From positions 122,641,121 through 122,705,120 of the forward strand of contig NC_091125.1 of the NCBI RefSeq assembly GCF_040183065.1: DNA of 64,000 nt, read 5' to 3'. Below the pieces are notes generated by a model. It was not told where the DNA came from, did not search any database, and worked only from the letters and a program-made list of their open reading frames with translations. How positions within the stretch are numbered: position 1 is the stretch's first letter; each line of letters opens with the position of its first letter. The DNA is from Periplaneta americana (Eukaryota > Arthropoda > Insecta > Blattodea > Blattidae). The translations under genes were made by a program, and so were the position numbers. Positions 4,082 through 58,225 of the stretch are shown one piece after another.

Positions 4082-4133
4082 ATGAAGTTTCAAATTATTC
4101 TTCTGCTTGCTACAATTGTGTGCAGTTGCCTCG
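4082..4133 (+). CDS. SPH-A exon 1 (signal peptide)
   Basis: Encodes MKFQIILLLATIVCSCL plus the first base of a Gly codon. A hydrophobic core ends in small residues, typical of a signal peptide. The donor GTAAG begins at 4134 (phase 1). It aligns with SPH-B exon 1. Confidence 0.88.
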
Positions 4134-7100
4134 GTAAGTCCACAAATTACGTTTCTTGATAATTAATTATCTGCAGCTTAAGTCACAATGAACAGTGCTA
4201 TTCCTGATTTGATTCCCCGATCTGGAAGGAAATTTATCTCCATTCCACGGGAATGGGTGTTTGTTCGTTGTATTGTGCTTGTTCTGTGACGTCTCCGCGG
4301 TGGCTCTACATCATGCTAACAACAGGATCAGGGAAGATTTCAATGTGAAATCTAAGGGTCGTAATCAAGAACATCACTTCAACTTTATATAAATGATTTG
4401 TTATTTTTAGATGCTAACATTACTAAAGATAATATTTATTCCTTTGCAGACTATATCATTATCATATTTACTGTCCACACCTGTGCAGTAACGGTTAGCG
4501 CGTCTGGCCGCGAAACCAGGTGGCCCGGGTTCGATTCCCGGCCGGGGCAAGTTACCTGGTTGAGGTTTTTCCTGGGTTTTCCCTCAACTCAATATGAGCA
4601 AATGCTGGGTAACTTTCGGGTTGGACCCCGGACTCATCTCACCGGCATTATCACCTTCATCTCATTCAGACGCTAAATAACCTTAGATGTTGATAAAGAG
4701 TCGTAAAATAACCTACTAAAAAAATATTTACTGGATGCTGCTGGGAACATGTTTTAAAAAAGGCTAATATTGGCTTAAATTCGATTAACATACGGTTAGA
4801 TTTTAATCTGCTAGCACTCAACATAGATAAAACAACTTTCATTCCCTTGGTTTTAAACAAAACAGGCCTCCCTGCAGTGGAAAGCAACTATAATTTAAAA
4901 ATTCACAGCAATAATTGTACAAATACCTATAATAATTGCAATTGTCCTAAACTACGCCCATCAACCCATGTGAAATATTTAGGTATTTTCATCGGCCTCG
5001 GTAGCGTAGTCGGTATAGCGCTGGCCTTTTATGCTCGAAGTTGCGGGTTCGATGCCGGCCCAGGTCGAAGGCATTTAAGTGTGTTTAAATGCGACAGGCT
5101 CATATCAGTAGATTTACTGGCATGTAAAAGAACTCCCGCGGGACAAAATTCCGGCACACCGGCGACGCTGATAATATAACCTCTGCAGTTGCGAGCGATG
5201 TTAATTAAACCATAATTTAAATTTTTCATCGATCAAAACTTAAAATGGAATTTTTATATTAACTACTTATGTCTTAAATTACGTAAAACTCTGTAAAAGT
5301 TGCTCAACTACGTCGCTTTATGCCAGTAAAACTATTGAGAACAATATTTTTAGCCCTGGTTCAGTCTATAATACAGTATAGGATGGAGTGGATTATCACA
5401 GAGTACCATTCGGCCATTAATATTACTACATAAAATAATTATTATCCAGAGGTTTGAGATGGGCAGGGCATGTAGCACGTATGGGTGAATCCAGAAATGC
5501 GTATAGCGTGTTAGTTTGCCCGAGGGAAAAAAGCTTCGGGGAGGCCCAGACGTAGATGGAAGGATAATATTAAAATGGATTTGAGGGAGGTGGGATATGA
5601 TGCTACGGACTGGTTTAATCTTGCTTAGGATAGAGACCGATGGCGGACTTGAGAGCGGCTGTTCTCTATAAGCTATTTGTAAGTAAGTATATTTAAGGAC
5701 GCTGTATCAACTATTAGATAATTTCGCATCAATGCAGTTGATGATAGCGACATGACATTGGCGATTTGAAGCCGAAGATTGGCTATATTATTATTCGACA
5801 TTTGCCTAACAGTTGCTAGAAGCTTTCTTATAAAGCATTTTCTCATCACCAATCTCAAATAATCAAACTAACTGATCAGAGTGATTTATTTTACTTCAGT
5901 TTAGAGTTGTAAGTCAATTAATTATTATTGTTACAGGTGCGCACATAGATCTAGCGAAATCTGATGATGTTGACTCACAAATCATTGGAGACATCTTTAC
6001 TGAAGATGATCTACATGGTGTAGTATGTTTCACTTACTATTACTTGCCTAATAACTTATAATAAAAGCCCACAAATAAAAATCTGTGTTACTATCGTACT
6101 CGATAGTAGTATATATGCTTTGCAGGACTTTGTGAATATAATTTTTATGCTGAAAAGTACAAGTTCTTCTCTAAAGTTAGTAAAAAGGAAATTATTTCAT
6201 GAAAAGTTGTAGAGATAAAGTGCGTCAAATTGGCACCCAAGTAAACATTTTGAAGCATAAGTGTCTATAAAGGACAGAACTGCTAATAAAGCGGTTCTTC
6301 GATTTGATCTTCGTTTTATGCTTCGATTTACCAAACTTAAGTTATTTCACTGTCGCAAATGTTTCTTTTTATCCAATAGCAAGCGAGTATCCGACTTTTC
6401 ATCATTTACCCAAGCGTCTCCATGTAAGAGCGATGCGCCGAAGCTGTAGTGTTTTTCGCAGCCATAGGCGCTACCCTCGTTGCACTTCGCAAGGCGAACT
6501 ACAGTCCGCATTTCACGAGAAGATCCGAGCAAGGAATGCGAGTTTTTCCCCACTCTTATAACCTATCCCGACACGGAACCGGCCGACCATTGATTGAACC
6601 TTGTTTGTCCCAGTCGGCCAATGACACCACTCCTATCCACCTGCTCCTTCAAGAACGCTGAGTTACTGGCTCACTCTCTCCTCTTACCCCGCGAGAACCA
6701 TGCGCCCCTCTCAGGGATCCTTTCGTGAAATTTGGAAAGTACATAACACTGCATGATGATGACTAATGGAGCAAAGGCGAAGTGGTGGGGAAAATCTACC
6801 ACCAAACACCGTCTTTGTCCGCCACAAATTCAATTCGGACCCACTAGGATTCGAGCCACAGTTACCAGCGTAGAAAGCCGATGCTCTAGTCCAGGGGTCG
6901 TCAGCACAGATCACCCTGGGGCTAGCGTCTCTTACCCGCGGAAAACGCAGTGCACCATGGTGCACTCGTGCTGCTAGCGGGTATGCTCTCTATCTCTTTC
7001 TGCTGCACGACGATGCACACGGGACGGCAACGCTTACCCTTTGCACATTTCAGCGAGTGCTGACGACCACTGCTCTAGTCGATCGCTTGTTCTGTCAAAT

Positions 7101-10100: not shown

Positions 10101-13100
10101 TCCCAACAGGTGGCAGAAAGATCAATTTCTACATTAGCGCCTCTAGCATGTGTTACGGGAAACTCAGTAAGTTTCGCGTCCTATTATATATTTATCCATG
10201 ACGTAGATGATGAGGCAGTACAAATTGTGTTTCCAGATATATGTGATGAAGGGCAAGCCGGGGACACCAAACACTACCCAATGTGTGGGTACGCTTATAA
10301 ATCCAGTCTTTGTTCTCACCACTGCTACATGCATATCTGGGTAAGCTTATATTTTTAAAATCCAAATTCAAAGGAACAGATTAATTTATTTTTGTTGTAT
10401 TTCCTTTTAATTTTTTTATGTACAGGGTTATTCAACGACAGGAAGGATTAGGATTTTATTTTCAAAGAAACTTCTGTTTCATTTGTTTCACTATTGTTGT
10501 TACGGCAAATGAAATAAATAAACAGCAATTCAAGCTATTCTCGAGTGAGTTAATGTGTATTTTCTTGCAAATTCATACCACAACGTAATGATTTTGCCCT
10601 GACAAACACAAACTGGCTTTATTCAGTATTAGTGATTGCTCCAGTGCACTGAAAAGATTCAGAACTTTAAATTGATTGAGGTACAGCCTCTGTAATTTGT
10701 TGTCATTATGGAATCTTGTAAAATTTTGAAGATATTCCAAGATATTTTCTTCTGAATGCTATTCATTCCGTAGAAGAGAGGCTACTAATGATAGAGAAAA
10801 ATAATTGCGACCATATCTGAATATATGGTTTACACCTGAATAACCCCATTCTTCTATGAACAGAATTTTATTTTTATTTCTATACAAAGTTAGAGCACTT
10901 TCAAATCTTTCTTGGCTTTTGAGTAACCCTATAGTTTAATTTAAGTAGATCTGAGCTAATTATAATAGTATAAGTATACATTATTATAAAGCAATAATGT
11001 TTCTACATTCATATTGTTGTGTTTCATTCCTAATTATCGCCTTCTTCTTGCACTAATAAGGTTTAGGTCGCATACTCTGTTACGTTTTCAATGCAGATCA
11101 TCTTCGAACCATACTTGAATTCCTGTAATATCTTTGACTCTTTCTTATTGATAAGACTGGTCAACAAATTTAAACATTTTGTCTGTTCAAGAAATGATTG
11201 ATTCATGGATTTTTTCGCCCTGATTTCAATTTTTTTCCACAACCCAAAAATTTAAGAACTCGTGAATTTTTGAAAGTATAATTAAATTATTAATATTGCT
11301 TTATTAATATCTGTGCTGATTTAACTTCATGTATATTCAAATATACAGTATATTACGGTTTTATTTTCATAGGCTTCTTCGCGCAGATTTCAAATCCATC
11401 TACAAAACGTTTCTCTATTAGCAGGAGTTTTCAATTAACCATGAATTTTACATTTAATTAAGACAAAAATTATATCTATGTAGATTTATCTTTTCGCACA
11501 CTAAAAGAGTAGGAATACTTCATTTTTATAAACATTTTCCTGCTCATTTAAAATCTGTTCATCAAATTATTATATCGTCCAGGGACTTTTAGCTACCGCA
11601 GAGTTATTTCGAGCCTCAGCACTAATATTCTTGATTCAGAGTGAACCTACTTGATGGAGTAAGTACTATAGGAAGCTGTGATGCGTGAGGTACCGATCTA
11701 ATTACTGACAACAGAGAGAGTATGTTCAGATCTTGAAATTATTCTAGATATACACCGTGCCCGGGCTAGAGGTATCAATAAATAATTGTTCACCACTTAT
11801 TAACAGAAGGATATTTTATAATAATGTTTGGCATAGGATGCAGAAGCTCTCCAAAATTTTAATTTCATAACAACAATGCTAGAAACCTAAATAAAAAGCA
11901 AGAAAATTGAAGATAAGAAAAAAGATAAGATATATCGTTGTGATTTATGTCACGAATTACTAACAGTCAACATTAATCATTCTAATTGAACGTAAAATGT
12001 GGACATCACATCAAAAAGGCAAGTGCGTGCTTTGGTTTTCTGAATTCAAATCTATTATCAGAGTTCGACGCCGATTTTGTCTTGAATTCAACATGGATCC
12101 ACCTACGTATGTTGAAATCAATTTTGCAGTGGAATAAAACTCTTAAAGAGACAGGATCCTTGATTCCACAAACAGGCAAAAATCCCAAGAAAAAAATAAC
12201 CGAAGAAACTGTCGATGTATACGAACTGCATTCAACTGGAGCCCAAGGATATTTGCCTGTTTGTGGAATCAATTCATACCATTTATTGAAAAATATGAAA
12301 ATATAATTCTGTCGATTCTGTTTTTGCAGAGGTAAGCCTTCTGATTACAGTGTCATAGCTGAACAACCTTTCTATAACAATGGTCTTCTCCACAAAGTTG
12401 TAGAAATAATTCTTCATGATGACTTTGAGGATAACGCTTTGAAATATTGGCCTCACGACATTGGTCTTCTCCGGGTATGTAAACCATCAGTAATGATCAG
12501 TAATGGTCCGAACAAATGTAACTTTTCGTTCTGAAAACAAATTTCAAAATGTTACATTTATTCGGATCAAATTTCTTTATATTTAAAGGACAAAACTAAA
12601 ATTCTTTCGAATATTTATTACCATAATACATTGTTCTCTTAAATTGAGTGTGGATATTGGGAATTAAATCAATGGCTTTCCCAAAACATGCTATGAAATG
12701 TTTTATATAAAACTATTTGTATCTCGGAAAGAAATAAAAGACGATGAAAATTGCATTAAACTTTTTTGTTTGAAATATCTCAAAGAATAATCCCCTGAAA
12801 TTAATGGCATTACTTACGGTTCACTCTGTAGCTACAAGTGTTAAAAGCCGTTAATATATTGGTATCCCTTATAAATTTGAAATACATTGGCATGATATTT
12901 ACTATAAAAATATGTCCGTAACTTTAGTAATACTCATCTGAATACGAGATACTTTGCACGAAATATAAGCCTTTAGGGTGAATGGTAACCTCTGCATCAA
13001 AATGAAACTGGTAATTGATCATGAGGAGAGATTTGAAAAATCTAAAAAAATCTTTTCTCTAACATTCACCGTTTTAGAGGAAATCGTTGTGTTTCTATTA

Positions 13101-13731
13101 AACATTTGGCAACATCACGGCTGCTGCAATAACTCTAAGCAAGCCCGACCTGCACTCCTTACCTTCCCCTCCCCCTCTGCTGTACTCGGTCGGTAATACG
13201 CGACATACGCTGCGTTGCAAGAATTATTTCAACGATTTTCGCTATTGTTCAGTTTAAATTAATGGCTAAACAGTTTAATTTGCAATTAACTGTTCAAGTC
13301 ATTTTTACCTATCTGCTTGTATAGTAATCAGTCATTTCTCTCGGGTCATTATCGCAATAGAGCATTGCAAACATTGGGAAAAAACTATTTCTTTCCTGCT
13401 TAACGGTGCTTCATCGAAGTTTTGTTATATTTAACATATAGAACCACCTCTTAAATTTTGGTTCAGAGGTTACCATCCATCCTGTATAACTTTATAGTAA
13501 AATAGTTTTAAAATATACAGTCACTTCAAATTAAGTCATGTTATTCAGTGATTTATTGTATGTCTACATTATTTATGTTAATGTGTCAACAGCTGGATGT
13601 ACAAGTTAACATAATCAATACAGGTATCTCAGCGCTTCCTAAGAGAGGCCACATACGTCCTAATACTGGCAGCGTGTACGGCTGGGGAGCTAATTGTGTA
13701 AGTTATATATCACAGTATCAGCTATCATTAG

Positions 13732-19700: not shown

Positions 19701-22700
19701 TAGACTCTCATTTTGAGAGCGCTACAGAGGCTAAGAGTGCTTGAGAATAAGGTGCTTAGGAAAAATGTTATGGGCTAAGAGGGATGAACTTACAGGAGAA
19801 TGAAGAAAGTTACATAACGCACTGTATTCTTCACCTGACATAATTATGAACTTTAAATCCAGACGTTTGAGATGGGCAGGGCATGTAGCACGTATGGGCG
19901 AATCCAGAAATGAATATAGAGTGTTAGTTGGGAGGCCGGAGGGGAAAAAGACCTTTGGGAAGGCCGAGACGCAGATGGGAGGATAATATTAAAATAGATT
20001 TGAGGGAGGTGGGATATGATGGTAGGGACTGGATTAATCTTGCTCAGGATAGGGTCCGATGGCGGGCTTATATGAGGGCGGCAATGAACCTCCGGGTTAT
20101 CTAAAAGCCATAAGTAAGTAAGTAAGGCTCATATATTAGTTTCAGTTCAATAAGTTTAGAAAAAAAATAATTTTAAGAGATTATAGATTATAATTCGTTA
20201 CTAGTTTCAGTTCAATAGGTTTGTAAATTATTTTATAAGGATGTCGTTACAAGTTACAGTTTATAAGACTTTGTGGTTTTTATACACAATAGTTATGTAA
20301 TGAATTTAAACTTATTTTGTCCTAAACTCTGTCATCCTACACACAGATTTGTTCATTATTCGTAAATATTACACTACAGGTACTTCTTGTCTGTGGAGTA
20401 TGGTAAAGTTAAATAAAATAAATGATCAAGAAAGGTACTGCAAGAATAAAAAAAAATCAATTAGGATTATTCCTCTTGAAATTCACTCACCTTCGTCAGC
20501 TTTTGACTTCACAAGTCTCTGATCTAAAAACAAGCATTTGTAACCAATTGGCCATCAAATATGGTATATAAATCGAGTTATTTGTGTAAATTCTTCCTTC
20601 CAGTAATACTCGTATTTTAGTTTTATTTCATTAACAAAGCTCTATTGCTAAATGAATGTGTTGGACACTATAAAAGATTTTATGTTATTCCAGGGATTTT
20701 GCGGACCATCTTCTTACCTGAAGGTCTTAAACGATGCATTCATTTCTAATAGCGACGACTGCTCCTCACTCTTTTACGATGGAAAAGGACCTGCGGATTC
20801 GTCCATCTGTGCTGGCAGTCTAACGGGCTTTTATGGAGTTTGCGATGTAAGTATCAAACTGCTCACTTTCTTTGCAGTAATAAAAAAAAACAACTGTACG
20901 TATTTTATATTGTTGTTGTTTAGTCAAGTGTCCGAAGACAGGTTTGAACCTCAGAAGTAGAGCTAGGAAGTTGGTACCAAAACAGTTAAGTATGTGTGAG
21001 CTTGGACTATATCTCTATCGAAAGACAAATAATAGCGCATCTCTCAATGTCAGTGAACCAGAACGGCAAACATGTACAAAAGGGTGGTAGCCAAACATGT
21101 GCTCCAATCGTTCACAGTCTTAGAACAAGAAAATAATAAACGAATAATAACAATAATTTGTAATATTATAAACTTCGTAACTCCCAAACTAAAATAATTT
21201 TCCCATACATACAAAAATAACATACAAAGCATACAATTATGATTCTAGTCTCATTATAACAAATAACAATGAACATTTTCATTTTATTAAAAGAAATACT
21301 CCTTTTGTGTTCAGGAAAAAAAAAAAATAATACTTTTACTCTGAAAATATTCGTTCTACGTCACAAGATCTTAATGGAGCAAATCTGAAATATGATACAG
21401 TATATCTTACTATCATCAGGTGAACAACTACTTTGTGAATTTAATAGTGTATCTCGTATGGTCACATAATATTAAACCCATAATTGTTCTCAAGAAAATG
21501 TTTCATTTCTATTGTAATGACAGCTAGGAGGTTCGTATCGTAATTCTGATGTTGAACTTCAACTGTAACGCAACTGAATGCATAGCAGCACGAGACGCCA
21601 ATATTTAACAAAGAATAATCCGTAAAAAAATAAACGCGTTACACACTCCTATTTGCATAATCATTTAACAATAGATGAGTATATTTTTTAATCATACATA
21701 ATATTTACATTAAGTAAATAATCTGCATGACTAACCCGTTTTCTTTTTCATTATCAGCAGGCAAAGCTACACTTCTTCCACATAATTCACTGTTGCTTTC
21801 TTCTCATTTAGATCAATTTAAAATTATGTTCAAAGTATGTCAGGTTTTGAAAGATTTGAAATGTCGGCCGATATTTTATAATAGGGGCATTCATAAACCA
21901 ATCTGGATGGAATCAGAATCACTCAATTGAAGATTTAAAAAAAACATAGTCCAAAAAATACAAATTTGACATATTAAGCATGTAATGAGTGTATTGTAGC
22001 GGACATCTACTGAATTAGTTTTTAGTAAAAAAAAAAAACAATAGTCCTATGTTATAGGAGTGGAAATATATAATAAAAGTATGAGTGCACACGAAAGTGC
22101 ATTGGTTTTGAATTGTTACGGTTCTTTACTGTATTCTGTCACTGTTTTGGTTCTCTTTTTGCAACGCTGTATATGGTAGCGTTCACACTTTTCTCCGCAC
22201 AGAGAGTAATATATAAGAAAAGTAAATTTTAAAAAGCAACACATTTATTAAAGTAATGACTTATGATAATGCAAAGTACAGAGAGTTGTTTCCGATCTCT
22301 GGAAACGAATTTTGAATGACATTATGTGCGTCAGGAATCACACGACAGCTGAACTGTGGTGCAGGTGGCAGACCAGTAGTGAGTGATCTCATAGTCAGAG
22401 TGCACGGTATTCCATAGCGGCAATGTCTAAGAAAATCGAGCCTTTTTGGGAGGGGTACTTTACGACCCTTTCCGATGCCAAGTACAGTTAAGTGAAAATA
22501 ATAGAAGCCTACAAAGAACGTGGTTTCGTTATTTCCAAGAAAGTCATCTTCTGTGTACTTAATAAAACAGGTAAAGCTCGGATGGGATTAATTTGTATCA
22601 TTTCGGGTGGTGCCGCTTATGGCGGGGGTGGATTTGCTGGCTTCTTCCCCTCTGGAATTAATTCCATCCGAGCTTTGCCAGTCTTATTAAGTACACAAAA

Positions 22701-29258: not shown

Positions 29259-29336
29259 TATATGTAGTTGGAAGTACACGGTATGATCACATAAGAAACG
29301 ATATTACAAAACAACAGCTCAATATTTTCAGCTTAA

Positions 29337-33369: not shown

Positions 33370-33370
33370 A

Positions 33371-35273: not shown

Positions 35274-35353
35274 ACCATAACTGGTATAGATGTTGATGAC
35301 AAATATTATATTATCATTAGCTTAAAAATGAAATACCGTAAGATAAAGAGATT

Positions 35354-35605
35354 AAGTGACGTACGTAATATCTTGTAGGAATAATCTTTCGTGGACACAT
35401 ATGGCACAAAATATGTGCGACGAGGCGGCTATCTCAATTAAACAAACAAATATCTTTATCAGATAAGAAAATGATATATCTAACTTTGTACCGTGTACCG
35501 CAGTGAACTTCGACGGTTGTGTGACTTCAGCTCAAGCGTAAAAGTTTTGTTTCATAAAATAATAATTAGTGAACAATACAGTAAAATTGTGTGTCCAAAA
35601 CCATC
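35354..35605 (+). promoter_or_regulatory. SPH-B upstream promoter region
   Basis: Carries the same ordered blocks as SPH-A: AAGTGACGTAC (35354-35364), ATATGGCACA, GCTATCTCAA, CAGATAAGA (35460-35468) and ACAATACAGT. The core is weaker, with only a CATAAAATAA stretch where SPH-A has TATAA. The shared blocks suggest that the duplication carried the promoter and that it stayed under constraint. Confidence 0.5.
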
Positions 35606-35654
35606 ATGAAGTTTCAAATTGTTTTATTCGCTACAATAGTAACCAGTTGTCTAG
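35606..35654 (+). CDS. SPH-B exon 1 (signal peptide)
   Basis: Encodes MKFQIVLFATIVTSCL plus the first base of an Ala codon. The donor GTAAG begins at 35655 (phase 1). One codon shorter than SPH-A exon 1. Confidence 0.88.
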
Positions 35655-38600: not shown

Positions 38601-41600
38601 ATAGAAGAATAAACTGGAGAATAGAAGAATAAACTGGAGAATAGAAGAATGAACTGGAGAATAGAAGAATGAACTGGAGAATAGAAGAATGAACTGAGAA
38701 TAGAAGAATGAACTGGAGAATAGAAGAATGAACTGGAGAATAGAAGAATGAACTGGAGAATAGAATAATGAACTGGAGAATAGAAGAATGAACTGGAGAA
38801 TAGAAGAATGAACTGGAGAATAGAAGAATGAACTGGAGAATAGAAGAATGAACTGGAGAATAGAAGAATGAACTGGAGAATAGAATAATGAACTGGAGAA
38901 TAGAAGAATGAACTGGAGAATAGAAGAATGAACTGGAGAATAGAAGAATGAACTGGAGAATAGAAGAATAAACTGGAGAATAGAAGAATGAACTGGAGAA
39001 TAGAAGAATGAACTGAGAATAGAAGAATGAACTGGAGAATAGAAGAATGAACTGGAGAATAGAAGAATGAACTGGAGAATAGAAGAATGAACTGGAGAAT
39101 AGAAGAATGAACTGGAGAATAGAAGAATGAACTGAGAATAGAAGAATGAACTGGAGAATAGAAGAATGAACTGGAGAATAGAAGAATGAACTGGAGAATA
39201 GATGAATGAACTGGAGAATAGAAGAATGAACTGGAGAATAGAAGAATGAACTGGAGAATAGAAGAATGAACTGGAGAATAGAAGAATGAACTGGAGAATA
39301 GAAGAATGAACTGGAGAATAGAAGAATAAACTGGAGAATAGAAGAATGAACTGGAGAATAGAAGAATGAACTGAGAATAGAAGAATGAACTGGAAAATAG
39401 AAGAATGAACTGGAGAATAGAAGAATGAACTGGAGAATAGAAGAATGAACTGGAGAATAGAAGAATGAACTGGAGAATAGAAGAATGAACTGAGAATAGA
39501 AGAATGGACTGGAGAATAGAAGAATGAACTAGAGAATAGAAGAATGAACTGGAGAATAGAAGAATGAACTGGAGAATAGAAGAATGAACTGGAGAATAGA
39601 AGAATGAACTAGAGAATAGAAGAATGAACTGGAGAATAGAAGAATGAACTGGAGAATAGAAGAATGAACTGGAGAATAGAAGAATGAACTGGAGAATATA
39701 AGAATGAACTGGAGAATAGGAGAATGAACTGGAGAATAGAAGAATGAACTGGAGAATAGAAGAATGAACTGGAGAATAGAAGAATGAACTGAGAATAGAA
39801 GAATGAACTGAAGAATAGAAGAATGAACTAGAGAATAGAAGAATGAACTGGAGAATAGAAGAATGAACTGGAGAATAGAAGAATGAACTGGAGAATAGAA
39901 GAATGAACTGGAGAATAGAATAATACATTGGAGAATAGAAGAATTAATTAGCGATGGAAGACAGAGTAAATTAGTGAATGGTGATTAAACGAGTATTGAA
40001 TAGGAAGATTGGAGAATAGTAGGTTTGCAGTGAAAGACTTGCCCTTGCGCATGAACGAATGAATTGATTAATGAATGGAGACTGAATAAATGAATAGACG
40101 ATCAAATAAAATATTGAATGAACGAATTAACGAACTAATGAATATAAGAATGGTTCGTGACTTGACTAATTAATTAATTATTTACAGTACAAATGGACAA
40201 ATGAATTAATTATTAATCAATAAATGAATGGATAAATGAGTGAGCAAGTGAATGAACGAATTAATTGTAAATGTTCCGCGAATGAATGAGTAAAGGAATA
40301 GGCTAGTATTTTGTAAACATTCGCACTTCTTAACAATCAAATAATTCTATTATTTATTCCCTAAAAGGAGTGATGAGTGATGACCAACTCTTGTTCTTTG
40401 TGCAAGAGCACTCTCCGTTACACACGAGCAGTATGCAAGAGCAGATCCAAACACATTGGAGAGATAGATAGGCTACCGTCGCTAAACGTTGAAGCACCTC
40501 TGTCGCCACTCCTTCCTCCCCAACTACTAACAGGCTACAAGGCTACACACTCTCTATTCTGTACTGCGTGAGAATGCTATTTACGTTATATATTTACTAA
40601 AATGTATTAGTAGTAGAAAAAAATACTATGAAACATAAAATTACACATATGGAATACTTATATGTTTTAATTAATTAAGAAACACTTGAGACATGTAATT
40701 ATGAATCTTGATTGCAGATAATAATGTATAGGCTATGGCATAATTTTAATTGCATACCCGGTCTCGTTACCTCGAGTATACTCTTCGCGGACTCAGAATG
40801 ACATGGTTCTATCTGACATTTTTAGCAAAATTGAGATTTTTGTTGCATTGAATTCTGCTACTTCACAGCTAGGCCTATCTACCATAAAAATTACATGTCG
40901 ATTCTCAATTATTGTTCGTGTTAAAGTTAGTTTGAAAAGGTTCTGATCTGCATTGATTTTATTAACAACCAAACTTTTAAAATGCTCTTCTATAAAATTT
41001 ACGAAACACTAGATCAGAGGTCTCCAAAACGCGTATAGTCATTCGTGATCCCGATGCTAACCGCCGAACACAGTGTGCTGTAGAGAAGGGGGAGAGACTC
41101 GTACCTCAACAGATGGGAGCGGTCAGTGAGGGATTGCGGCAACGATCTCCCTTATGTTTCCAAATAATAACATCGAAAGGATAAGAAATATCATATGTTT
41201 GTATATTATTTTGACATACTAGGAAGCTTCTACTTTTGATTGGGGAATATTCTATAATGGAATAATTCATTTCGCATTACTTCTAGAAGACATTCTGTAT
41301 GCACGATTTTACAAATGCTCATTCTGTAAAGGGTTTCATTGATTTTCCAATATTCCAAGTTAGAACATAGCTAGCAAGAAGTTTTTTTGTTTAGACTGAG
41401 GATACGTGTGTGATTTGTGTTTGTATTTTCTTGTTTCAAATTTATCAAAATATTCGTATGTATTTCACCTAAAATGAAACGAAAACTGTAAGTATATCTT
41501 GCGAAACTGAGTGTAAACGTATTGTAATATACTTATTATTATTATGTATAACCAACAGTTATATAGACGTCCCAAAATAAATTATTTTCACATGTTGAAT

Positions 41601-42392
41601 TTCAACACACTCTTAAGATTTTTCGAACAAATTAAATATTTCATATTCTCCCCACTAACACGAAAATATATTTCTCTTCCCTTTCATCCTTGAATGTACT
41701 ACGTCCATGATTAGAAGACATTGTGAAACGGTCGAACACTCCGGCCAACACAATGATAATGGCAGTCCACCACTGCTCCTCGTTTGCGCATAATCATTGA
41801 GTACAGTACACTTGGAGACGGGTGAGGCGGAGCGCGCGCATTACGTACTGGCTTCGGTTCCGTTCAGGGGCTTACTCGCGAGTACGCTTTTGGAGACGTC
41901 TGCACTAGATAGAACCTTGTCATTCTGAATCCTCGTCTTACTAAATAATTTTGCATTGAACGTTAACAAGTTTTAATAGAGTATCTCTACAATAAAATGT
42001 TCAATACACTATAAATTCTCAAAATTTCACCTGAGTTTTTTCTATTAAAGATTTAGGATTAATCTTTACATATCAAGATACTCAGAAAAGATCGGTTACA
42101 CATTAACTTTCCCCATCACAAATCTCAAAGAATATATTTCGAATCGAACCAAGTTTCTTCTAGTACAACGTCATTAACTGACTGAACTGCAATTGAACAT
42201 AGATCTAGTGTTTTTTTTTTACCACTTGATGTCACACTTGTAAATCAATTAATTATTGTTACAGCTGCGGACGTAGATCTGGAATCATATGATGATATTG
42301 ACTCACGAATCATTGGAGATATTTATGCTGAAGATGATCTACCTAGTGTGGTATGTTTAACTTACTATTACTTGCGTAATAGCTCGTATATA

Positions 42393-42426: not shown

Positions 42427-45400
42427 TGTTGTCCTCAAACTGAATTCTGAAAATCAAAAATACACAAATTTATGTTGACGATGTGTAGGTTCTTCTCTAA
42501 AGTTACCAAAAAGGAAATTATTTCATGAGAAGATATAGAGAGAAAGAAGAGGTCAGAATGTAACAGAAAAGGAAATATCATACCAGGACGGAATAGAAGA
42601 TATCAGAACAGAATAGAGAACATTTCATAGCAAAACAGACTAGAAAATATCAGAACGTACCAAAATAAAGAGATCATAACAACAGTATAGAACAGGCCTG
42701 CACAAACAGCGCTCGCCGAAACGGAGAGGAAGATACGTCAGAATGACATAGACTTGCTATAGGTAGAGGAGAAGGAAACGACCACTCAGTTACCTAGTGG
42801 AGTGCAGTGTGTAGGCCTATTCTCAGTAACTGTTTCACGTTGCTTACCTACTGCTACAATACAGTATGGAGGAATCTAAAAGACGGAACATAACATTTAA
42901 CGATTTACAGCTCGAACTTATTGATCTTCAATGCGACCTAAGGGCTAAAGATCGTTTGAATAATACTACTAGCCTGGTTGAGTTTTACAAGACTAAACAT
43001 TAGCAATAATATCCACGACTACACAGGCTGGCCGTGAAAGTGATTGCTATGTTTGGCTCAACATTTATATTTGTGTGCAACTGTTTTCTATAATCAACTT
43101 TAATAAAGGTATACATCGAACATCTGTAACTGATGTTTCATTATGATCAGTAGGCTACTGTTCCTTTCAGCTGCCATCAGCATAAAACCTCGTTTTGATG
43201 TAGTGATAAATAAAAATATAACAAAATGATATTGTACATTTAAGTAGCTATATAATTTATATTATTTCTATAAAATAAATATTTCTATAATAATTAATAA
43301 TAGTCCAAGATAGTTTTGCAAACACTGAACATGAATTCATTTCATAAGCACTCGTAATAGTACTTCCTTTTGTGTTTATTTTGTACGAGATCACCCCTTC
43401 TTCCAGTCCACCCTTATACAGACCGCAGCTAATATCTGCATTCCGCTCACGAGCTGTGAGACGGCTCGGAGAGCGCAAACCTTGTGCGGGCCTGGTATAG
43501 AAGGTGGTGTTGGTAGTGACGTAGTGAAGGCTATGGTGATACTGATCACAAACGGAATAAAAAAGATCAGAATAGGACGGAATAGAAGATAGGCCTATAA
43601 CAGAATAGATGGAGAGATTAGAAAAGAATTTGAAGTGTCACAACACAACAGAAGATACCAAAGCTTAACAGAATAGACCAGGATGGAAAAATACAACAGA
43701 TCAGAACAGAATAGATCACTTGATTGTAATAGAACTGAATTGAAAATGATAGGAATAGGATGAAAAAATGCAGTACAAAAATGTTAGAAAGAAAATTAAT
43801 GGAATAGAGAAACCCAAATAGATCCATTCATGTCATCTGTAATGGGCCCGCTTATCATAAAAAGCGAGCCCTTCCTTTCCGGGACTGAATCACGACACTC
43901 CAATAAAAATGTAATTAATCATTAAAAAGGCACCTTTTCAAGTACAGAAGCCACTAAAGGCAATGAGATTATATAGAAGTAATGACGATGTTGTTTCTGC
44001 ATTAGAAACCCACGTGAGTTCCAAAATTGTTACTTGACTAAGCTAAAATTCACTCATTCAGTATGAAAGTTGAAAAAATTTATGTTAATGCAGTGATCAA
44101 TATTGATTCCAGGTGTACATCACGAAAGGCAAGTCTGGAGAAACAGCAACCACTATCCAATGTGTGGGTACGCTTATAAATCCTGTCTTTGTCCTCACTA
44201 GCGCTTCATGCATAGTTGGGTAAGAATATTCTAAGTTTACTGATAAACAGTTCATATTCTTAAAATTCAATTCAATTTAACAAGGGTTAAAATGAAGTTA
44301 TTACCATAATTCAATGGAAACATATAGCAAGTAATATAAAGTATACACATTCAAACTAAATGATATGTCAACCTTCATTAAACTATGGTATTCACTTAAC
44401 TTCAACCCTTGTTTTCTCCGTTTTTTATAAATGGCGCTTGACCCACTATGGCCCTGAACCCTTCAATTAATGCATGTATGGGCAAAATGTGATGACTCCC
44501 GAAAATAAAGGGGCTGACTACTGAAAATTTTTAGTTTTATCTAACATTGGTAAAAATTGTCTTTTATTGCATATAAGCTGTCTTTAAATAAATACTTCGT
44601 TATTATTGTTATCAAATCCAAGTGGCATTTTGTACATGAGTACTATTGCTGTTGTACACCGACTTACATACACACGTACACGAATAAATATATGTAAAGA
44701 CGAAGCATACGAGGAGAGATCGCAGCGTGAAGTGTTGACTCGCAACTTGCTCTCCATACGAAGCGAAGCTATATAATATGATCGACGTAAACCTAACTTA
44801 TATTCAAAGTAATCAAACGCAGGACTCTAATTATGAGTTTGTTACCCAAACAGTAATTGATAGATGGTAATACCTGGTTAAATACTTGAAAATTGTGTAA
44901 TGTTTTAGTACTTTCTACATGAAATGAAGGCACTATACAGACGCGATATGTGAATGACACATAACATGCAATTATGATAGTTCACTATAGTAATACTTAA
45001 CCACTGTTTAAACAAATTTCCGTACATTTCCTCATGATAATATTCTGTGGGTTTTTATTTAAGGAAAAATACTGTATTGGGGACAAATCCAGTAGATGTT
45101 CCAGAATGTAAAGTAATAAATCTTAAAACCTTTCCTAATGATAAACTCAAAAGATGTTCTGCTTCTAAAAACTGGTAAACCCAGATTTTTCTTTCTAATT
45201 ATTAACATTTTAACAAAGTTTCATCTAGATAAATAATTGGTCGCCCAGTTTGTCTTAAATGTTTCATTATTCTCAAAAATCTAAATCTTTTCACCACGAC
45301 GTCGGGATTGTGCATTAGAAATTTGCGTCCCATAATATTATTTACGTAATGAAAATCCAAGCCCCTCATTATCTCAGGCAAATCCCATCTACTTCCATTT

Positions 45401-48400
45401 ACTTTCACCTTGCAATATAATTATGAAAGGCAAAAGGGCACTTAGGCAGAGAATTATTAAGTCGTCGGTTTCAGCATGTTTATCAAAGGTTGCCTTTATA
45501 TGTCAGTCAATTTCAATGTATTGTTTCCACCTCTTTCTGCCCTGTATTCCTAAGTCCCGGATCATGATTTTTCCGGTGACTTCGTCCATTTTCGATATTA
45601 CAATGAGTGGAGGGCAGACAAATATTAAAACAATAAACATGTCGAACAGAGAATACAACATCGGAAGAAGGGAGTTGTGTATGATATATGATTCAGGTAA
45701 AGCGAAAGGGTAATTGAACGTCCTGTGCGCTCGAACACTGTGCGCTCAAAATTAATCAACTGGTTCAATCATTGGTTCAATGACGTTCGTATGACTTTAG
45801 ACAACGTGTCCCCTGGCCGTTGGATTTGTAGGGAAGGAGCGATCGCTTGGCCCCCCGAGATCTCCGGATTTAACGCCGCTCGATTTCTTTGTCTGGGGCT
45901 ACGTCAAAGATGTCAGAGAACTTCGTGATCTTCGGGAGCGCATCATAGAGGCTATTGAGAGCATTCCAGAAGACATGCTCCAACGTGCTTGGCAAGAAAT
46001 CGTTCATCGCCTCGATATCGTCACAGTGACAGCTGGAGCTCACGTAGAGATATATCGAAACTTGTTGAGTTTTCCTTTCATATAAACGTTACTGTAGGTT
46101 TCTATCTTCAACCGTTTACCAGTCACATACAATTGAAATTAGGTACATTCGAGCGGTCCATCCTGTATAATGAATAGAATAGAACGAAGAGAAATATAAA
46201 TATAAAATAATGTAACAAAACTGAACGAGACAGAATATAATAAAATGAATAAAACAGGAAATTAAATGGTGAAATTTTATATGAAACTTTAGGGGAAAGA
46301 TAATCTTTAATATTTCACCACAGAAAATATTTTGTTCATTTCAGAGATGTAAGTTTTTGGCATCTTAAGTGTATTTTCTGAAAGCGGACATGTCAGGTTA
46401 TGGAAGTTTGAAATTAGCGTTGTTGTTTATTGGAATTCCCATGTTCATACATTTTTTCTTCCAAATTTCTAAACTTTTCTCTGCTAAAATTTTAAACAGT
46501 GTGGGTGACAAGCAACATTCTTAGTAACATATAATAATAATAATAGTAATAATAATAATAATAATGATAATAACAATAATAATAAAATATTTCGCGAACA
46601 AACGGTGTGAAAAAAAATATATTAATTTGTTACTCCAAACACTTGAGTTTTAGGCGTAATATTAACTGTCACATGTTAACTCAAATGTAATTCCTTCAAG
46701 CTCCACCAGAAGAAAATATTTCTTTTAATTTCTTCCAAGTAAAAGTAGGTCTATTATTATAAGTTTACTCAAAGGAATACAAAGATACCTTTCCAGGCCA
46801 TCATGAGAAAGTGCAATTCATACCATTTCGTGGAAAATATAAGAATATGAGTCTTGTAATTCATGTTCTTACAGAGGTCTACCTGAAGATTTCCATGTAG
46901 TAGCTGAAGCGGCAGACTTCAACGAAGGTGTTACATACACAGTTGTAGACGTGATAATCCATGAAAACTATGAAGATAACTATGAAAAATATTGGCCTCA
47001 TGACATTGGTCTTCTCCAGGTATGTAAATCTCTGTACTACGAGTTCACGAATTTGTGCCAAATTATGTTCATTTTACACATTTAAACATATACACGGTGG
47101 ACCAAAAAATGTGAAATTTTAAACCTTTCCTTATTTCGGCTAAGCCGAGTTGAGTTAGGCTGCGAACATATTTGTTGTGTTTAAGAATGTATATCATTTA
47201 GTCCTTAACAAAGAACATGGCCTGATTTAATGTTGACATAGCAACAACGTAACATAAACCTCCAGCATTTTAAAGTTTGTTATCAACGTTATATTTAATC
47301 AGAGTAAAGAGAGGATGGAAAATTGGAGTGGCATAAAATTACGTCACAGTCTAGTATATACAGTCACGAAGCTTGAGTTGTGAGGGTGCTAGGATCAATA
47401 GACTGTGCAGGTACTATTTCGCATTGTCTGTAATGAGGCAATAGTAGCGATCCTAGTGGTTAGCAACTATCTATGGATGCATATCTACTACGTATTGAGC
47501 TTCGTGACTGTATATACTAAACTGTGATTACGTTACTAACAATAGTCATCTTCGCCTGCATTTGAGATAACTGCTCAGGTCGACCTGGTTGGCGAGTTGG
47601 TATAGCGCTGGCCTTCTATGCCCAAGGTTGCGGGTTCGATCCCGGGCCAGGTCGATGGCATTTAAGTGTGCTTAAATGCGACACTTAAATGCGACAGGCT
47701 CATGTCAGTAGATTTACTGGCATGTAAAAGAACTCCTGCGGGACAAAATTCCGGCACATCCGGCGACGCTGATATAACCTCTGCAGTTGCGAGCGTCGTT
47801 AAATAAAACATAACATTTAACTGCTCAGCATGAAATATTAATTTTATGAAGAAATAATACATAATTTTAGAATATATAATCTCACAACATCCAATTAAGT
47901 TATATTATTCAGTAATTTATTTTATATAATACATTCTTAATGTTTGATGTGTTAATAGTTGGATGTACAAGAACTTAATGGAACCATAAGAAATATCGCA
48001 GACATTCCTAAGAGAGATCACGAACTTCCTGATACTGGCAGTGTGTACGGCTGGGGAGCTACTTGTGTAAGTTTTTACAATTTTGAGTATCTATTACTAG
48101 ATCACGTAGTTTTATATAAAAATTACTATTTTGACCGACATGTAAACCTTCCGAAATATGAGGTCGAATCACCCCCCTCAAATATCTGCACACGGGTAAA
48201 CAGTGACGTACATACTGGAAAGATTATACCAAATACCTTACTATAATAATACCGGACAGCTGTATATAGCAGTATTGACGTGAGTGCAGAATTTCGCGGA
48301 CCTGACATCTAGCGGAGCGGCGTGGAATTACACAAATACAAATATTAACATAGCGGAAATCGGACTATTGTTTAAAACATGAGGTACTAATGTGGAATAA

Positions 48401-51400: not shown

Positions 51401-54400
51401 GATATAACAAAAAAACATATAATCTGGACCTATAACAGTAAATTATGCAAATGACAAAGAATAGAAAACAATATATGTAATACATAAGATTCATAAGCTA
51501 TATGTAAATATGACATAATGCAGGATGAATATAGAGATAATCTTTGGATTTTAAAATTAGACTAGACAAATATTTTATACATATAGCTCATGTTACAATT
51601 AAATATACAATGGTTAAAATTTGTCAATGATGTTAAAATTTAAAATTTATAATGATGATAATAAAATATTTTAGAGTAATCATAGCTGAGAATTACAATA
51701 TTGATTTTCTCTACTTAAATTTCAGTGTATCATTAAAATTCATACCTAACTTATGATTTATCTATTACGAAATACTCGTACATTCCACTACACTCATAAT
51801 CAATGAGCATTTATTCAAATATCTCAACAAATCTAATTACACCTAACAGCAATTCTTTAACATAAACAACATTAGTTCATTAATAAATGTTTTTAGTAAG
51901 TAATCTTATAATAATAATTATCTGCGTCTCTATATAATAACTCGTTTATATTTTTTCATTTATTATTATTTCTCCATTTCAATTTTCAGATGAAACAATT
52001 ACAAAATACACGAACATCAGCTACGCAAACTATCTTGTAACTCACGACAATTCTCAGCTATGATTACTCTAAAATATTTTATTATCATCATTATAAATTT
52101 TAAATTTTAACATCATTGACAAATTTTAACCATTGTATATTTAATTGTAACATGAGCTATATGTATAAAATATTTGTCTAGTCTAATTTTAAAATCCAAA
52201 GATTATCTCTATATTCATCCTGCATTATGTCATATTTACATATAGCTCATGAATCTTATGTATTACATATATTATTTTCTATTCTTTGTCATTTGCATAA
52301 TTTACTGTTATAGGTCCAGATTATATGTTTTTTGTTATATCTGAAGATACCCTAAACGGCGAAAACGTTCATATTGTTATTACATAGCAAATAAACATTT
52401 GCAAGTTGATATGTCTTAAGATTGAAATTTATTATATACTTATTTAATAAAACTTTCAAAACTTTTGTCGCAATTAACTTTTTAGTGACGTCAATAAAAA
52501 ATATATTTAAAAAATATAATTTCAAAACTATTAATCCCAAAGAAACCTTATTTTATATACATAATAGTATTATAGGAATATCTTTGTAGTTTAAAATTCA
52601 TAAATTTCGAATGAAAATTGTAAAAGTTTTTAAAATCACCTTTAAGGTTAGATCTTTATCCCAAAAGACACTGTGAAATGATTTTACTGCGAATCTTGTA
52701 CCTATGTCAAATGTTCTGTTTCTGGTGTACCACTATTATCTAATATATCGTTTTATGAATTATCATATACGGTAACTACTGCACTGTCAGCCACCAACAC
52801 CAAGACAACGCGGTAGAAGCCCCGAAGCTTATCCACAGACCAACTACTGTACAACTTTGAACAGTTTTGACACTGACTGCACTATGTAAATCGAATATTA
52901 GAAATGTACGATTATTAGAAATATAGTATTTCGCGAGAATTATTTCTCGAACAGTTACCAAATTGCAACGTAAACCTATTTTCATCTAATCCACAATTTG
53001 CCAATCTTCTTCCAGATGGGATTGTGTGAATGTAGAAATACATTACATTATTGTGATAATGCAATGCCTAAAGTATGAAGTAGGAAAACATTTTTTTATA
53101 TAAAATGACTGAGTAGAATGCTTCCCATACTTAAGACTGATAGAAAAATAAGTTCTTTGTAAAGTTTATAATTTATAAATTATGCACATAATTTGTTGAC
53201 TACTTCATTATAAAAATATACAATCAAACACGTTTCAAACCATTTTCAGAGAATAGGCCTACGTTTCCCGAAAGTACTTTTAACAACTTAAATATCTTCA
53301 TTGTGTTAAATATTGAAACAATGAGGTTCTTTACCTAAGTGACTAGTTTCGGACCGAGACTGTAAATCTCAGGCCTAAGGGCAAGCATTCCACAAAGATG
53401 GAACACATATTGAATTGTGAATGTAAGGTGAAAATATTTTCTTCCTTTCAGTGATTTCGAATATTCATCTCACTTCACTAACAAACTTCAATTTTTGGTT
53501 TTGTTATTGCAGGGATTTTGCGGGCCGACTTCCGGGTTGAAGGTGATTAATCTACAAGTTTATAATCGTCAAGATTGCACTTCAACATATTATGATGGAA
53601 AAGCTCCTGCAGACTCATCCTTCTGTGCAGGCAATATAGAAAATAAAATACTTGGAGTTTGCGATGTAAGTATAAAACTAATCACGCCACGCGCGGCCGC
53701 ACTCTCGTGGATGAACGTCGATTTGAAGGCTCTATATATCCTATTACATTTTTACATAGAATATTCCTCAATATTGAGCTTTCTTTCAGACCGTATAATG
53801 CATCTTCGGAATTAAATCGAAGTTTTCCATAGAGAATATTTAAAAAAATTTGGACTCAGACTAAATCCAGACAAATCACAAGCTATAATAATGGGCCACC
53901 AACGAGCATTAAACAAAATAGATTTAGCCACTGTATCAAATACAAAAATAAATAATACAGTACTACAATTACATATAGTAAGACAGTAAAAATGTAGGGT
54001 ATATTTAGATTCAAATTTAAATTTTCAAAGTCAAGTGACCTATATACGTAAGAAAACTTTTTCCATAATTCATTCCCTCAAACACTTAACCAACGTTTTA
54101 CCTCTCAGCCTTAAAAAGAATCTGATCCAAACTTTAGTGATGCCCCATTTCGATTATTGCGATTCTCTATTCACGAATCTAAATACTGATCTTGCCCATA
54201 GACTACAGCGTGTTCACAATATCTGCGTTCGTTTCGTTTGTAACATTAGAAAATTCGATCATGTAACACCGTCACTAGAATTGTTGTCTTGGAGTCCACT
54301 TAAAGAAAGAAGATTCTTCAACTCTCTCTTATTACTATTTAAAATCATCCACACCTCCATACCCTCTTACCTAGCATCTCGTTTTGTTTACCTTTCACTA

Positions 54401-57831: not shown

Positions 57832-57879
<48 letters not shown>

Positions 57880-58225
57880 GTTGTTGTTGTTGTTGTTGTT
57901 ATTGTTGTTGTTTATGATTGTGAATGCACTTTATTCAATGTTACTATCATCGTAATGAAATACAGAATAGTAAAGTACTGTGACATCCATGTCATCTTGG
58001 TTGATAAACGCATTTGTGAAAGTTCTGTCTGCAATATGGACATTTTCTTTACAGGGTGACAGTGGTGCACCACTTCTGTACAACGGAACAATATACGGTG
58101 TTGCATCTTGGATGTCGTATCCCTGTGGATCAGTACCTGCAGTTTTCACTGATGTTCAGAGTCACGTAGAATGGATTGTTCGTAAAATGTCTACTACTCC
58201 TCTCACTCCACTAGTTTCTGCATGA
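35606..58225 (+). CDS. SPH-B: secreted S1-family serine protease homologue (probable pseudoprotease), 7 exons
   Basis: Spliced CDS: 35606-35654, 42265-42350, 44113-44219, 46875-47019, 47959-48066, 53513-53665, 58055-58225, giving 272 residues with GT-AG introns. Residues 1-17 form a signal peptide. The pro-segment ends DSR31 before IIGD, so the trypsin-type activation site is intact. Landmarks: LTSASC at 73-78 (His57 replaced by Ser77), HDIGLL with Asp124, YGWG, SSFCAG, and GDSGAP with Ser219. Pocket positions 189, 216 and 226 are Gly, Met and Ala. It is a tandem paralogue of SPH-A with the same exon plan. Thr codon ACA in A and Ser codon TCA in B differ by one base, while either needs at least two changes from a His codon, so the His was probably lost before duplication. 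Likely secreted, zymogen-like and cleavable, but not a conventional protease. Confidence 0.91.
36170..37139 (+). repeat. degenerate 23-bp minisatellite
   Basis: Best seen at 36380-37010 as GAATTGGTGAATAGAAGGAT plus three variable bases (GAC or GAT). Outside this it fades into GAAT/GAAC-rich sequence. Related to the 20-bp array that follows. Confidence 0.88.
37170..39950 (+). repeat. 20-bp minisatellite, about 140 copies
   Basis: Unit GAACTGGAGAATAGAAGAAT, highly homogeneous. 19-bp variants (one G lost) recur, several 119 bp apart (near 37260, 37379, 37498; 39014, 39133; 39373, 39492), a higher-order period of five 20-mers plus one 19-mer. The complement has no stop in any frame, which creates an apparent 929-codon frame. 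Confidence 0.97.
39951..40290 (+). repeat. degenerate GAAT-rich flank of the minisatellite
   Basis: Irregular GAATGAA/GAACGAA motifs with ATTAATTAATTA patches, probably the decayed ancestral simple repeat. Confidence 0.6.
41015..41902. mobile_element. non-autonomous hAT element in SPH-B intron 1
   Basis: 888 bp. TIRs CAGAGGTCTCCAAAACGCGT and CAGACGTCTCCAAAAGCGTA. Perfect 8-bp duplication CACTAGAT (41007-41014, 41903-41910). No transposase reading frame seen. Confidence 0.85.
42265..42350 (+). CDS. SPH-B exon 2 (pro-segment and activation site)
   Basis: 86 bp after TTACAG, ending at GTATGT. Encodes an acidic pro-segment ending DSR, then IIGDIYAEDDL. Arg31-Ile32 is a canonical trypsin-like cleavage site, unlike SPH-A. 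Confidence 0.9.
42388..42426 (+). repeat. (AAT)n microsatellite
   Basis: About 13 units near the start of SPH-B intron 2. Confidence 0.9.
42693..43494 (+). mobile_element. hAT element with transposase C-terminal relic
   Basis: 802 bp. TIRs CAGGCCTGCACAAACAGCG and CAGGCCCGCACAAGGTTTGC. Perfect 8-bp duplication GTATAGAA (42685-42692, 43495-43502). It carries the tail of a hAT transposase (see 42866). Confidence 0.9.
42866..43127 (+). pseudogene. hAT transposase C-terminal (dimerisation) relic
   Basis: The + frame reads LQLELIDLQCDLRAKDRLNN and LVEFYKTKH, then after two in-frame stops YPRLHRLAVKVIAMFGST. This is the order seen in the C-terminus of hAT transposases of the ZBED/Buster type (ELIDLQ, then FPxL, then FGSTYxCE). 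The CE part is altered. N-terminal and catalytic regions are missing. Confidence 0.75.
44113..44219 (+). CDS. SPH-B exon 3 (catalytic His region, His replaced by Ser)
   Basis: 107 bp after TTCCAG, ending before GTAAG (phase 2). Encodes VYITKGKSGETATT, then QCVGTLINPVFVLTSASC. Ser77 (TCA) occupies the His57 position between Ala76 and Cys78. One codon longer than SPH-A exon 3. Confidence 0.9.
44282..44460 (+). repeat. dispersed repeat D3, copy 1
   Basis: AATTCAATGGAAACATATAG through AAACTATGG matches 49690-49786 in SPH-B intron 5. It carries an inverted end (ACTTCAACCCTTGTTTTC) equivalent to the left end of copy 2. Probably a small TIR element. Confidence 0.55.
45206..45420 (-). pseudogene. 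transposase fragment (DDE_3-like, first Asp region)
   Basis: The - strand frame reads GSRWDLPEIMRGLDF, then VVKRFRFLRIMKHLRQTG, then RPIIYLDET. The pattern (RFRFLR, RLR, GRPIIYxDET) is that of insect Tc1-like DDE_3 transposases. The remaining catalytic part is not found nearby. Confidence 0.55.
45750..46085 (+). pseudogene. Tc1/mariner transposase C-terminal fragment
   Basis: Reads SPGRWICREGAIAWPP, then after a one-base shift PDLTPLDFFVWGYVKDV and LRERIIEAIESIPEDMLQRA, the third acidic motif and tail of a Tc1/mariner transposase. A TIR-like end CCATCCTGTATA follows near 46160. The upstream domain is missing. Confidence 0.75.
46530..46585 (+). repeat. (AAT)n microsatellite
   Basis: Imperfect AAT/AAC units in SPH-B intron 3. 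Confidence 0.85.
46875..47019 (+). CDS. SPH-B exon 4 (catalytic Asp region)
   Basis: 145 bp after CTTACAG, ending at GTATGT. Encodes GLPEDFHVVAEAADF to YWPHDIGLLQ. Asp124 corresponds to catalytic Asp102. Confidence 0.9.
47345..47526. mobile_element. MITE family M, copy 2
   Basis: TIRs as in copy 1 (CACAGTCTAGTATATACAG). Flanked by ATTACGT on both sides (7 bp). In SPH-B intron 4. Confidence 0.85.
47579..47817 (+). mobile_element. SINE family 3
   Basis: Intact tRNA-like head with B-box GGTTCGATCCC. Perfect 11-bp duplication TAACTGCTCAG (47568-47578, 47818-47828). An internal duplication of ACTTAAATGCGAC near 47675-47695. In SPH-B intron 4. Confidence 0.87.
47959..48066 (+). CDS. SPH-B exon 5 (GWG region)
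   Basis: 108 bp after TTAATAG, ending at GTAAGT. Encodes LDVQELNG to TGSVYGWGATC. Confidence 0.9.
48828..49080 (+). mobile_element. Helitron-like 5' end
   Basis: Starts TCTACACTAATAATAAATC and continues with TGTATGTCTGTCTGTCTGG and GGCTGAACCGATTTATAT, a pattern common at the 5' ends of insect Helitrons and their derivatives. The 3' end (CTRR with hairpin) was not located. Confidence 0.45.
49635..49786 (+). repeat. dispersed repeat D3, copy 2
   Basis: Pairs with 44282-44460; the left end GGGTTCAGAACCATATGGGC is inverted relative to copy 1's right end. Confidence 0.55.
51294..52448. mobile_element. 1.15-kb foldback with two 400-bp near-identical arms
   Basis: Arms 51294-51694 and 52049-52448 are inverted with only scattered differences; the spacer is 354 bp. 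Shared blocks include ATGAACGTTTTCGCCGTTTA and TAAATTATGCAAATGACAAA. Both outer ends include a TTAA. No coding content. It lies in SPH-B intron 5, so the pre-mRNA could form a long hairpin. Confidence 0.93.
53513..53665 (+). CDS. SPH-B exon 6 (C168-C182 loop, S1 pocket base)
   Basis: 153 bp after TTGCAG, ending at GTAAG. Encodes GFCGPTS to KILGVCD and includes SSFCAG. Identical in length to SPH-A exon 6. Position 189 is Gly213. Confidence 0.9.
53815..55030 (+). mobile_element. LINE family beta (CR1/L2-like), 3' end
   Basis: Begins FGLRLNPDKSQAIIMG, then a 184-codon frame (54035-54589) with VMPHFDYCDSLFT, LAHRLQRVHNICVRF, HVTPSLELLSW and IPRLWNSLPDHV, typical of the C-terminus of CR1/L2/jockey-type RTs. 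The 3' UTR has an ATT array and ends AATAAATTATTATTA. Located 150 bp after SPH-B exon 6. Confidence 0.85.
54683..54784 (+). repeat. (ATT)n microsatellite in the LINE 3' UTR
   Basis: ATT units with a short ACT interruption near 54708-54722. Confidence 0.93.
55160..55925 (-). mobile_element. LINE family alpha copy: endonuclease joined to 3' end by a deletion
   Basis: On the - strand the 5' part encodes MRFGTWNVTSFYR, LARYRIDFLGVQELRLDGNG and GTGFFVHKRIKSAVKKVEF, an AP-type endonuclease of a LINE. At about 55390 it jumps directly to MGESRN and GRPRRRWEDN, the 3' end. The reverse transcriptase is absent. It ends in an ACTT-type tail at 55160. Confidence 0.85.
56015..56330 (+). mobile_element. 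LINE family beta fragment, decayed
   Basis: Reads LKMPHFEYCDIMLSDLSSEL and KLQRVQNMF, then DHTSPSFSILSWLRPKERK with stops between, parallel to the 54035 copy. Later elements split it from a possible tail at 57700-57850. Confidence 0.65.
56743..57636 (+). mobile_element. mariner-like relic, internally deleted
   Basis: About 894 bp between inverted arms of about 150 bp that share AACACATACTTTCTGAGAT and CAAAACAAGAAAATAAT. The right border is CCTG then TA. It encodes only the catalytic part of a transposase (57015-57440). Confidence 0.78.
57015..57440 (+). pseudogene. mariner-like transposase relic (DDE part only)
   Basis: Frames with several stops give SRDGVVNFRNQ, HRFPINVWAGVLDDRLTGPY, FMHDGTSAHF (second Asp) and PARSPNINPLDFWLW (third acidic motif). 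Same family as 28035-29091 but from a different, more decayed subfamily. No HTH region. Confidence 0.75.
57700..57912 (+). repeat. LINE-like 3' tail with (ATT)n and (GTT)n
   Basis: GACTGGAAGAGAAGGCTGTA to AAATAAATTATTATT parallels the 3' end of LINE beta near 54965-55020. An ATT array (57833-57880) and a GTT array (57880-57912) follow. Confidence 0.75.
58055..58225 (+). CDS. SPH-B exon 7 (catalytic Ser to stop)
   Basis: 171 bp after TTTACAG. Starts GDSGAP (Ser219), continues GVASWMSYPCGS and VEWIVRKM, and ends at TGA 58223-58225. Three codons longer at the C-terminus than SPH-A. Confidence 0.93.
   Translation, partial: GDSGAPLLYNGTIYGVASWMSYPCGSVPAVFTDVQSHVEWIVRKMSTTPLTPLVSA

Follow-up and report, generated by a model that had tools for sequence, protein, structure and literature searches.

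A tandem pair of predicted non-clip serine protease homologues lacking the catalytic histidine in Periplaneta americana

Known serine protease homologues and the cockroach pair

Serine protease homologues (SPHs) are S1 proteins in which at least one residue of the catalytic triad is replaced (PMC10036332, PMC1761132). They account for 13 of the 57 serine protease (SP)-related genes in the honeybee (PMC1761132), 25 of 90 in Nilaparvata, where tandem arrays are reported (PMC4085338), 43 of 177 in Ostrinia, where 71 of the 177 SP and SPH genes are tandemly distributed (PMC10036332), and 101 of 221 in Plutella (PMC4676143). Here we describe two neighboring genes of this kind, A and B, in a 64,000-nucleotide stretch of the Periplaneta americana genome (assembly GCF_040183065.1, contig NC_091125.1, positions 122,641,121 to 122,705,120, forward strand; hereafter the window). 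Both encode S1 proteins in which the catalytic histidine (His57) is replaced. From their sequences, A and B are probably secreted-type, single-domain SPHs without a clip domain, arranged in tandem, that use the S1 fold as a non-catalytic binding module, acting as cofactor or decoy.

The closest described proteins are the non-clip SPHs of insects, which, like A and B, have a single S1 domain, fewer than 300 amino acids, and a replaced triad residue, and often occur in tandem (PMC10036332, PMC4085338, PMC4676143). As such proteins are standard in insect genomes, the pair gives no pointer to an undescribed system, although a first reading of this DNA from its letters alone (the sequence-only reading) had ranked it as the best candidate for one. 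The pair appears instead to be an ordinary, though well-preserved, example of a known insect kind, and triad losses confined to the histidine already have precedents. The literature matches listed for cockroach SPHs, all open-licence PMC papers, do not describe such a pair in their titles or abstract openings, which is no evidence of novelty. Honeybee SPH56 carries TTASC and thus shares Ser57 with B (PMC1761132). Six honeybee SPHs listed there with a non-His TAAHC motif (SPH50, 51, and 53–56) have a changed GDSGGP motif too (PMC1761132), whereas His57 is the only triad residue lost in A and B.

Pseudoproteases with the S1 fold are also known as receptor ligands, cofactors, decoys, or scaffolds (PMC13194640). 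The SMIPP-S proteins of the scabies mite are, like A and B, duplicated S1 paralogues with a mutated triad (PMC4930577), but they belong to a parasite, of which there is no sign here, and some of them inhibit the complement of the host. SMIPP-S are defined by descent from mite genes of the Sar s 3/Der p 3 type; the sequence and fold matches listed for the cockroach proteins include Der p 3, tied with many proteases. In inactive SPHs of snake venom, the catalytic His of an S1 homologue is likewise replaced (His43 to Arg) (PMC3840601). These differ from A and B in lineage and tissue, and the substitute is Arg or another residue rather than Thr or Ser. The human neutrophil SPH azurocidin carries Ser at the position of His57 and has also lost Ser195, which A and B keep. 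The resemblance to A and B, which are predicted to be inactive too, is that azurocidin is an S1 homologue without activity whose gene lies in a cluster of protease genes (PMC7914634).

Catalytic residues, fold, and predicted role

In alignments with solved proteases, the segments VLTTATC of A and VLTSASC of B line up on VLTAAHC. At position 57, A has Thr (ACA) and B has Ser (TCA), compared with His in 66/66 aligned bacterial relatives. Both proteins retain Asp102 and Ser195. The replacements and the two retained residues are exactly those noted in the sequence-only reading. The His57-Asp102-Ser195 triad of an active S1 protease is absent from A and B, since residue 57 is replaced in both, and the two proteins fall within the SPH definition given above.

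The bacterial set consists of 80 S1 loci, of which a simple motif gave His in 75 and left 5 unmatched; the alignment with A and B took 66 of the 80, including the 5 unmatched ones. Because patterns at positions 41–50 and 190–198 served to find the loci, conservation there is partly selected, while positions 57, 189, 216, and 226 lie outside any pattern. None of 149 pattern-matching stretches in viral contigs codes for a relative. Four glycines of the bacterial proteins are replaced in the cockroach pair, namely those at positions 43 (66/66; Val in A and B), 197 (66/66; Ala in both), 216 (65/66; Leu in A, Met in B), and 226 (63/66; Ala in both). Asp189 (64/66) is Gly and Gln192 (58/66) is Asp in both copies. 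Conversely, Cys42, Thr54, Cys58, Asp102, Cys191, Gly193, Asp194, Ser195, Gly196, Pro198, and Ser214 are identical in A, B, and all 66 bacterial proteins, and Cys220 is kept in A, B, and 64/66. The oxyanion-hole residues, Asp194, and the core cysteines are thus retained in both copies.

Both proteins match the Pfam family Trypsin (PF00089; A, E-value 2.1e-26, 93.5 bits; B, 8.4e-31, 107.9 bits; curated cut-off 20.6) and are assigned by sequence to the S1 (trypsin/chymotrypsin) family, with one domain each. A hydrophobic signal-like segment beginning MKFQI, recognized by eye, is followed in each by a 14-residue acidic propeptide and by IIGD, the equivalent of the usual mature N-terminus IVGG. The Pfam matches and signal-like N-termini bear out the earlier description of the pair as secreted-type S1 homologues. 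No clip domain was found, Trypsin being the sole Pfam family in either protein, and no NCBIfam family was matched; neither protein has a cysteine in the 14 residues separating the assumed signal peptide from IIGD, whereas a clip domain has six. As judged from these sequences, A and B are not clip-domain SPHs. Six cysteines in each protein correspond to those of the usual S1 disulfides. A further pair, in the motif CGFC, spans the exon 5/6 junction in both, and by elimination these two cysteines may be bonded to each other.

An AlphaFold run with a two-sequence alignment of A and B gave a predicted local distance difference test (pLDDT) score of 29.1, and bacterial relatives were then added. 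The resulting AlphaFold2 model, made for B only, has a pLDDT of 86.7 and a template modelling score of about 0.8 to S1 proteases, and in this model B has the chymotrypsin-like double beta-barrel fold. Of the 68 sequences in its alignment, 66 are trypsin-like proteins from bacteria in which the triad is complete, so that an open or closed cleft is not readable from the model.

Because the key catalytic His is replaced by Thr or Ser, binding rather than cutting is the most likely function of these proteins. Neither A nor B would cleave peptide bonds; the folded S1 domain would serve as a binding module whose partners touch the altered cleft and the surface loops, and A and B would most likely regulate active proteases or their inhibitors as non-catalytic cofactor or decoy. 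Both roles are predictions, and we do not rank one above the other. B has Arg15 directly ahead of IIGD, where a trypsin-like enzyme could cleave it like a classical zymogen, whereas A has Gln15 at that place and would probably remain a single chain. The copies may therefore differ in activation as well as in their loops.

In the decoy role, a tentative proposal, a retained inhibitor-binding face would capture inhibitors from the diet or from pathogens, or serpins of the host, and so spare active digestive or immune proteases. Such a role is consistent with a triad that lacks only its general base, alongside the retained Ser195, Gly193, and core cysteines, and with small, single-domain, acidic proteins (isoelectric point without the assumed signal peptide, 4.9 for A and 4.2 for B); in Plutella, moreover, SP and SPH genes are mostly highly expressed in the larval midgut (PMC4676143). 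However, both copies have a filled S1 pocket at Gly216 and Gly226, and the P1 residue of a standard inhibitor may therefore not enter it. An equally tentative proposal is that A and B are cofactors in an immune or developmental protease cascade, like the insect SPHs that act in prophenoloxidase or Toll activation. Prophenoloxidase cofactors generally carry a clip domain, unlike A and B, which speaks against this role. The Drosophila SPH Spheroide, which has a signal peptide and a trypsin fold, supports Toll activation without a catalytic serine and is required for its full extent (PMC5718610).

The conserved residues could also be taken to mean that A and B still catalyze in a non-classical way, with Ser195 activated by a His or other base that comes from the bound substrate or from a neighboring side chain. 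We consider this very improbable, even though Ser195, Asp102, Gly193, Asp194, and Ser214 are intact in both copies and a His-to-Ala subtilisin was rescued by substrate-assisted catalysis (PMC12018205). The changes G43V, G197A, G216M/L, and G226A probably also reshape the cleft. Furthermore, no natural S1 enzyme is known to work in this way, which counts against such catalysis. It is likewise highly improbable that A and B form a His-less hydrolase pair that retains Ser195 and the oxyanion hole in order to act chemically on one specific partner, with a base supplied by a bound substrate or ligand and with differing zymogen control (Arg15 cleavable in B, Gln15 in A).

Duplication history and selection

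The two proteins are identical at 175 of 266 positions, and exon 7 at 44 of 53, the same value as reported from sequence alone. By hand count, ACA and TCA are each three changes from CAY, so that a shared loss of His (CAY to xCA once, then one further change) takes 4 changes and two independent losses take 6. A shared loss before the duplication is the most parsimonious history because of this difference, and the states common to A and B at positions 43, 197, and 226 agree with it. In our judgement, these sequence comparisons make it very likely that His57 was lost once, ahead of the duplication, as the sequence-only reading had proposed. Its supporting argument, the single-base difference between ACA and TCA, carries little weight alone because 6 of the 24 Thr/Ser codon pairs differ by one base anyway (hand count).

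The introns, previously described as unrelated, still carry traces of common origin. At 7 of the 12 intron edges, at most one of 300 random intron pairs aligns as well as A and B do, while the remaining 5 have no such excess; since these edges align above random pairs, the introns are better seen as related remnants at 7 edges. Upstream of the genes, a blastn search of positions 3801–4140 against the window matched 3831–4139 (A) to 35334–35660 (B) over 345 columns at 65% identity (E-value 4.9e-29), a match that takes in exon 1 and includes about 250 bp of upstream sequence. Gene conversion of exon 7 was also considered but is not shown (synonymous differences 10/40, against 58/146 in exons 1–6, rounded; Fisher p 0.098).

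Between the copies, the Nei–Gojobori (NG86) method gives a synonymous divergence (dS) of 0.50, a nonsynonymous divergence (dN) of 0.23, and a dN/dS of 0.46 (bootstrap 0.33–0.66), away from the value near 1 that the sequence-only reading had named as a refutation; single exons range from 0.07 to 1.1. Purifying selection on A and B overall is supported by these sequences. The earlier claim that both copies were kept under selection stands on this ratio and on the open frames, but not on the contrast between a conserved exon 7 and unrelated introns, which fails.

Several points weigh against the interpretation of A and B as maintained, non-catalytic binding proteins. A pure scaffold needs neither Ser195 and Asp102 nor the oxyanion hole, yet all are intact, and some chemistry is possible. 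The glycine comparison involves bacterial proteins only, which are distant, and insect S1 proteins may normally show some of the cockroach states. Confidence in the AlphaFold model is low at its N-terminal block (pLDDT 63). A pairwise dN/dS cannot prove equal constraint on both copies, and the highest value, that of exon 5, comes from 35 codons and is noisy. The exon 5 value would also suit non-functional duplicates in decay, which we regard as very unlikely, as 14/14 exons are open, every splice site is intact, and the overall ratio is 0.46. Under neutrality, at 0.25 substitutions per site, a frame would stay open with a chance of 0.003 for A and 0.0025 for B; the corresponding values are 0.08 and 0.06 at 0.1, and 0.26 and 0.20 at 0.05. 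Given the open frames and these odds of neutral survival, both copies were most likely kept.

Gene layout, repeats, and significance

The gene models, rebuilt from the DNA, place A (4082–24282) and B (35606–58225) head to tail on the + strand as complete genes of seven exons encoding 268 and 272 amino acids, respectively (Table 1). Exon lengths are 52/86/104/145/105/153/162 in A and 49/86/107/145/108/153/171 in B, differing by 0, 3, or 9 bases, with neither frame broken. Each of the 12 introns begins with GT and ends with AG, and the two genes share the phase series 1,0,2,0,0,0 over their six introns. The tandem seven-exon arrangement with matching phases and near-equal exon lengths agrees with the first description, whose limits of 4082 and 58225 were exact. 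By eye, tblastn searches with both proteins on both strands of the window (E-value up to 50) revealed no further gene copy and, among the rows outside the known exons, no alternative exon 3 bearing His. A six-frame scan for [TS]A[AG]xC found two sites only, both within the ends of one transposon.

Table 1. Features of genes A and B, in window coordinates.
Feature	Positions	Strand	Basis
A upstream, putative promoter and 5' untranslated region (UTR), resembles that of B	3831..4081	+	blastn, alignment
A exon 1, signal-like N-terminus	4082..4133	+	ATG, hydrophobic core, donor gtaagt
A exon 2, acidic propeptide, Gln then IIGD N-terminus	5937..6022	+	
A exon 3, His57 region VLTTATC, Thr57 codon ACA	10237..10340	+	alignment to proteases
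A exon 4, Asp102 in WPHDIGLL	12330..12474	+	
A exon 5, GWG motif, first Cys of CGFC	13593..13697	+	
A exon 6, S1-site segment, Gly189, Asp192	20694..20846	+	
A exon 7, Ser195 in GDSGAP, Leu216, stop TAA	24121..24282	+	
B upstream, putative promoter and 5' UTR	35334..35605	+	blastn, alignment
B exon 1, signal-like N-terminus	35606..35654	+	
B exon 2, propeptide, Arg then IIGD	42265..42350	+	
B exon 3, His57 region VLTSASC, Ser57 codon TCA	44113..44219	+	alignment to proteases
B exon 4, Asp102 in WPHDIGLL	46875..47019	+	
B exon 5, GWG motif, first Cys of CGFC	47959..48066	+	
B exon 6, S1-site segment, Gly189, Asp192	53513..53665	+	
B exon 7, Ser195 in GDSGAP, Met216, C-terminal helix (in model), stop TGA	58055..58225	+	

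Intron 1 of B contains a 3.7-kb minisatellite (36231–39961) of 20/40/60-bp units, with 96% matches over 37169–39944. The region has a strong strand asymmetry (GC skew 0.70 over 36001–40000), and the − strand of the minisatellite carries three stop-free frames of 829–934 codons. One repeat occurs both in intron 1 of A (4993–5160) and in intron 4 of B (about 47596–47760); it is probably a tRNA-derived short interspersed nuclear element (SINE), because the first copy overlaps a tRNA-Lys-like sequence. Between the genes lie a 1.5-kb DNA transposon (27776–29263), with 178-nt inverted ends that are 93% complementary and a DUF4817 helix-turn-helix match, which we take to be Tc1/mariner-like, and, on the − strand, a tRNA-Arg-like sequence (33043–33118) that scores 29 bits against an Rfam gathering score of 29 and may be a gene or the head of a SINE. 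Beyond B, a 51-bp tandem repeat of about 26 copies (61921–63223) has open frames on both strands.

The pair offers a clean pseudoprotease case, in which only the general base of the triad was lost and the gene was then duplicated, with the copies still under selection. A and B could thereby help to ask what the protease fold does after catalysis, and why Ser195 and the oxyanion hole persist.
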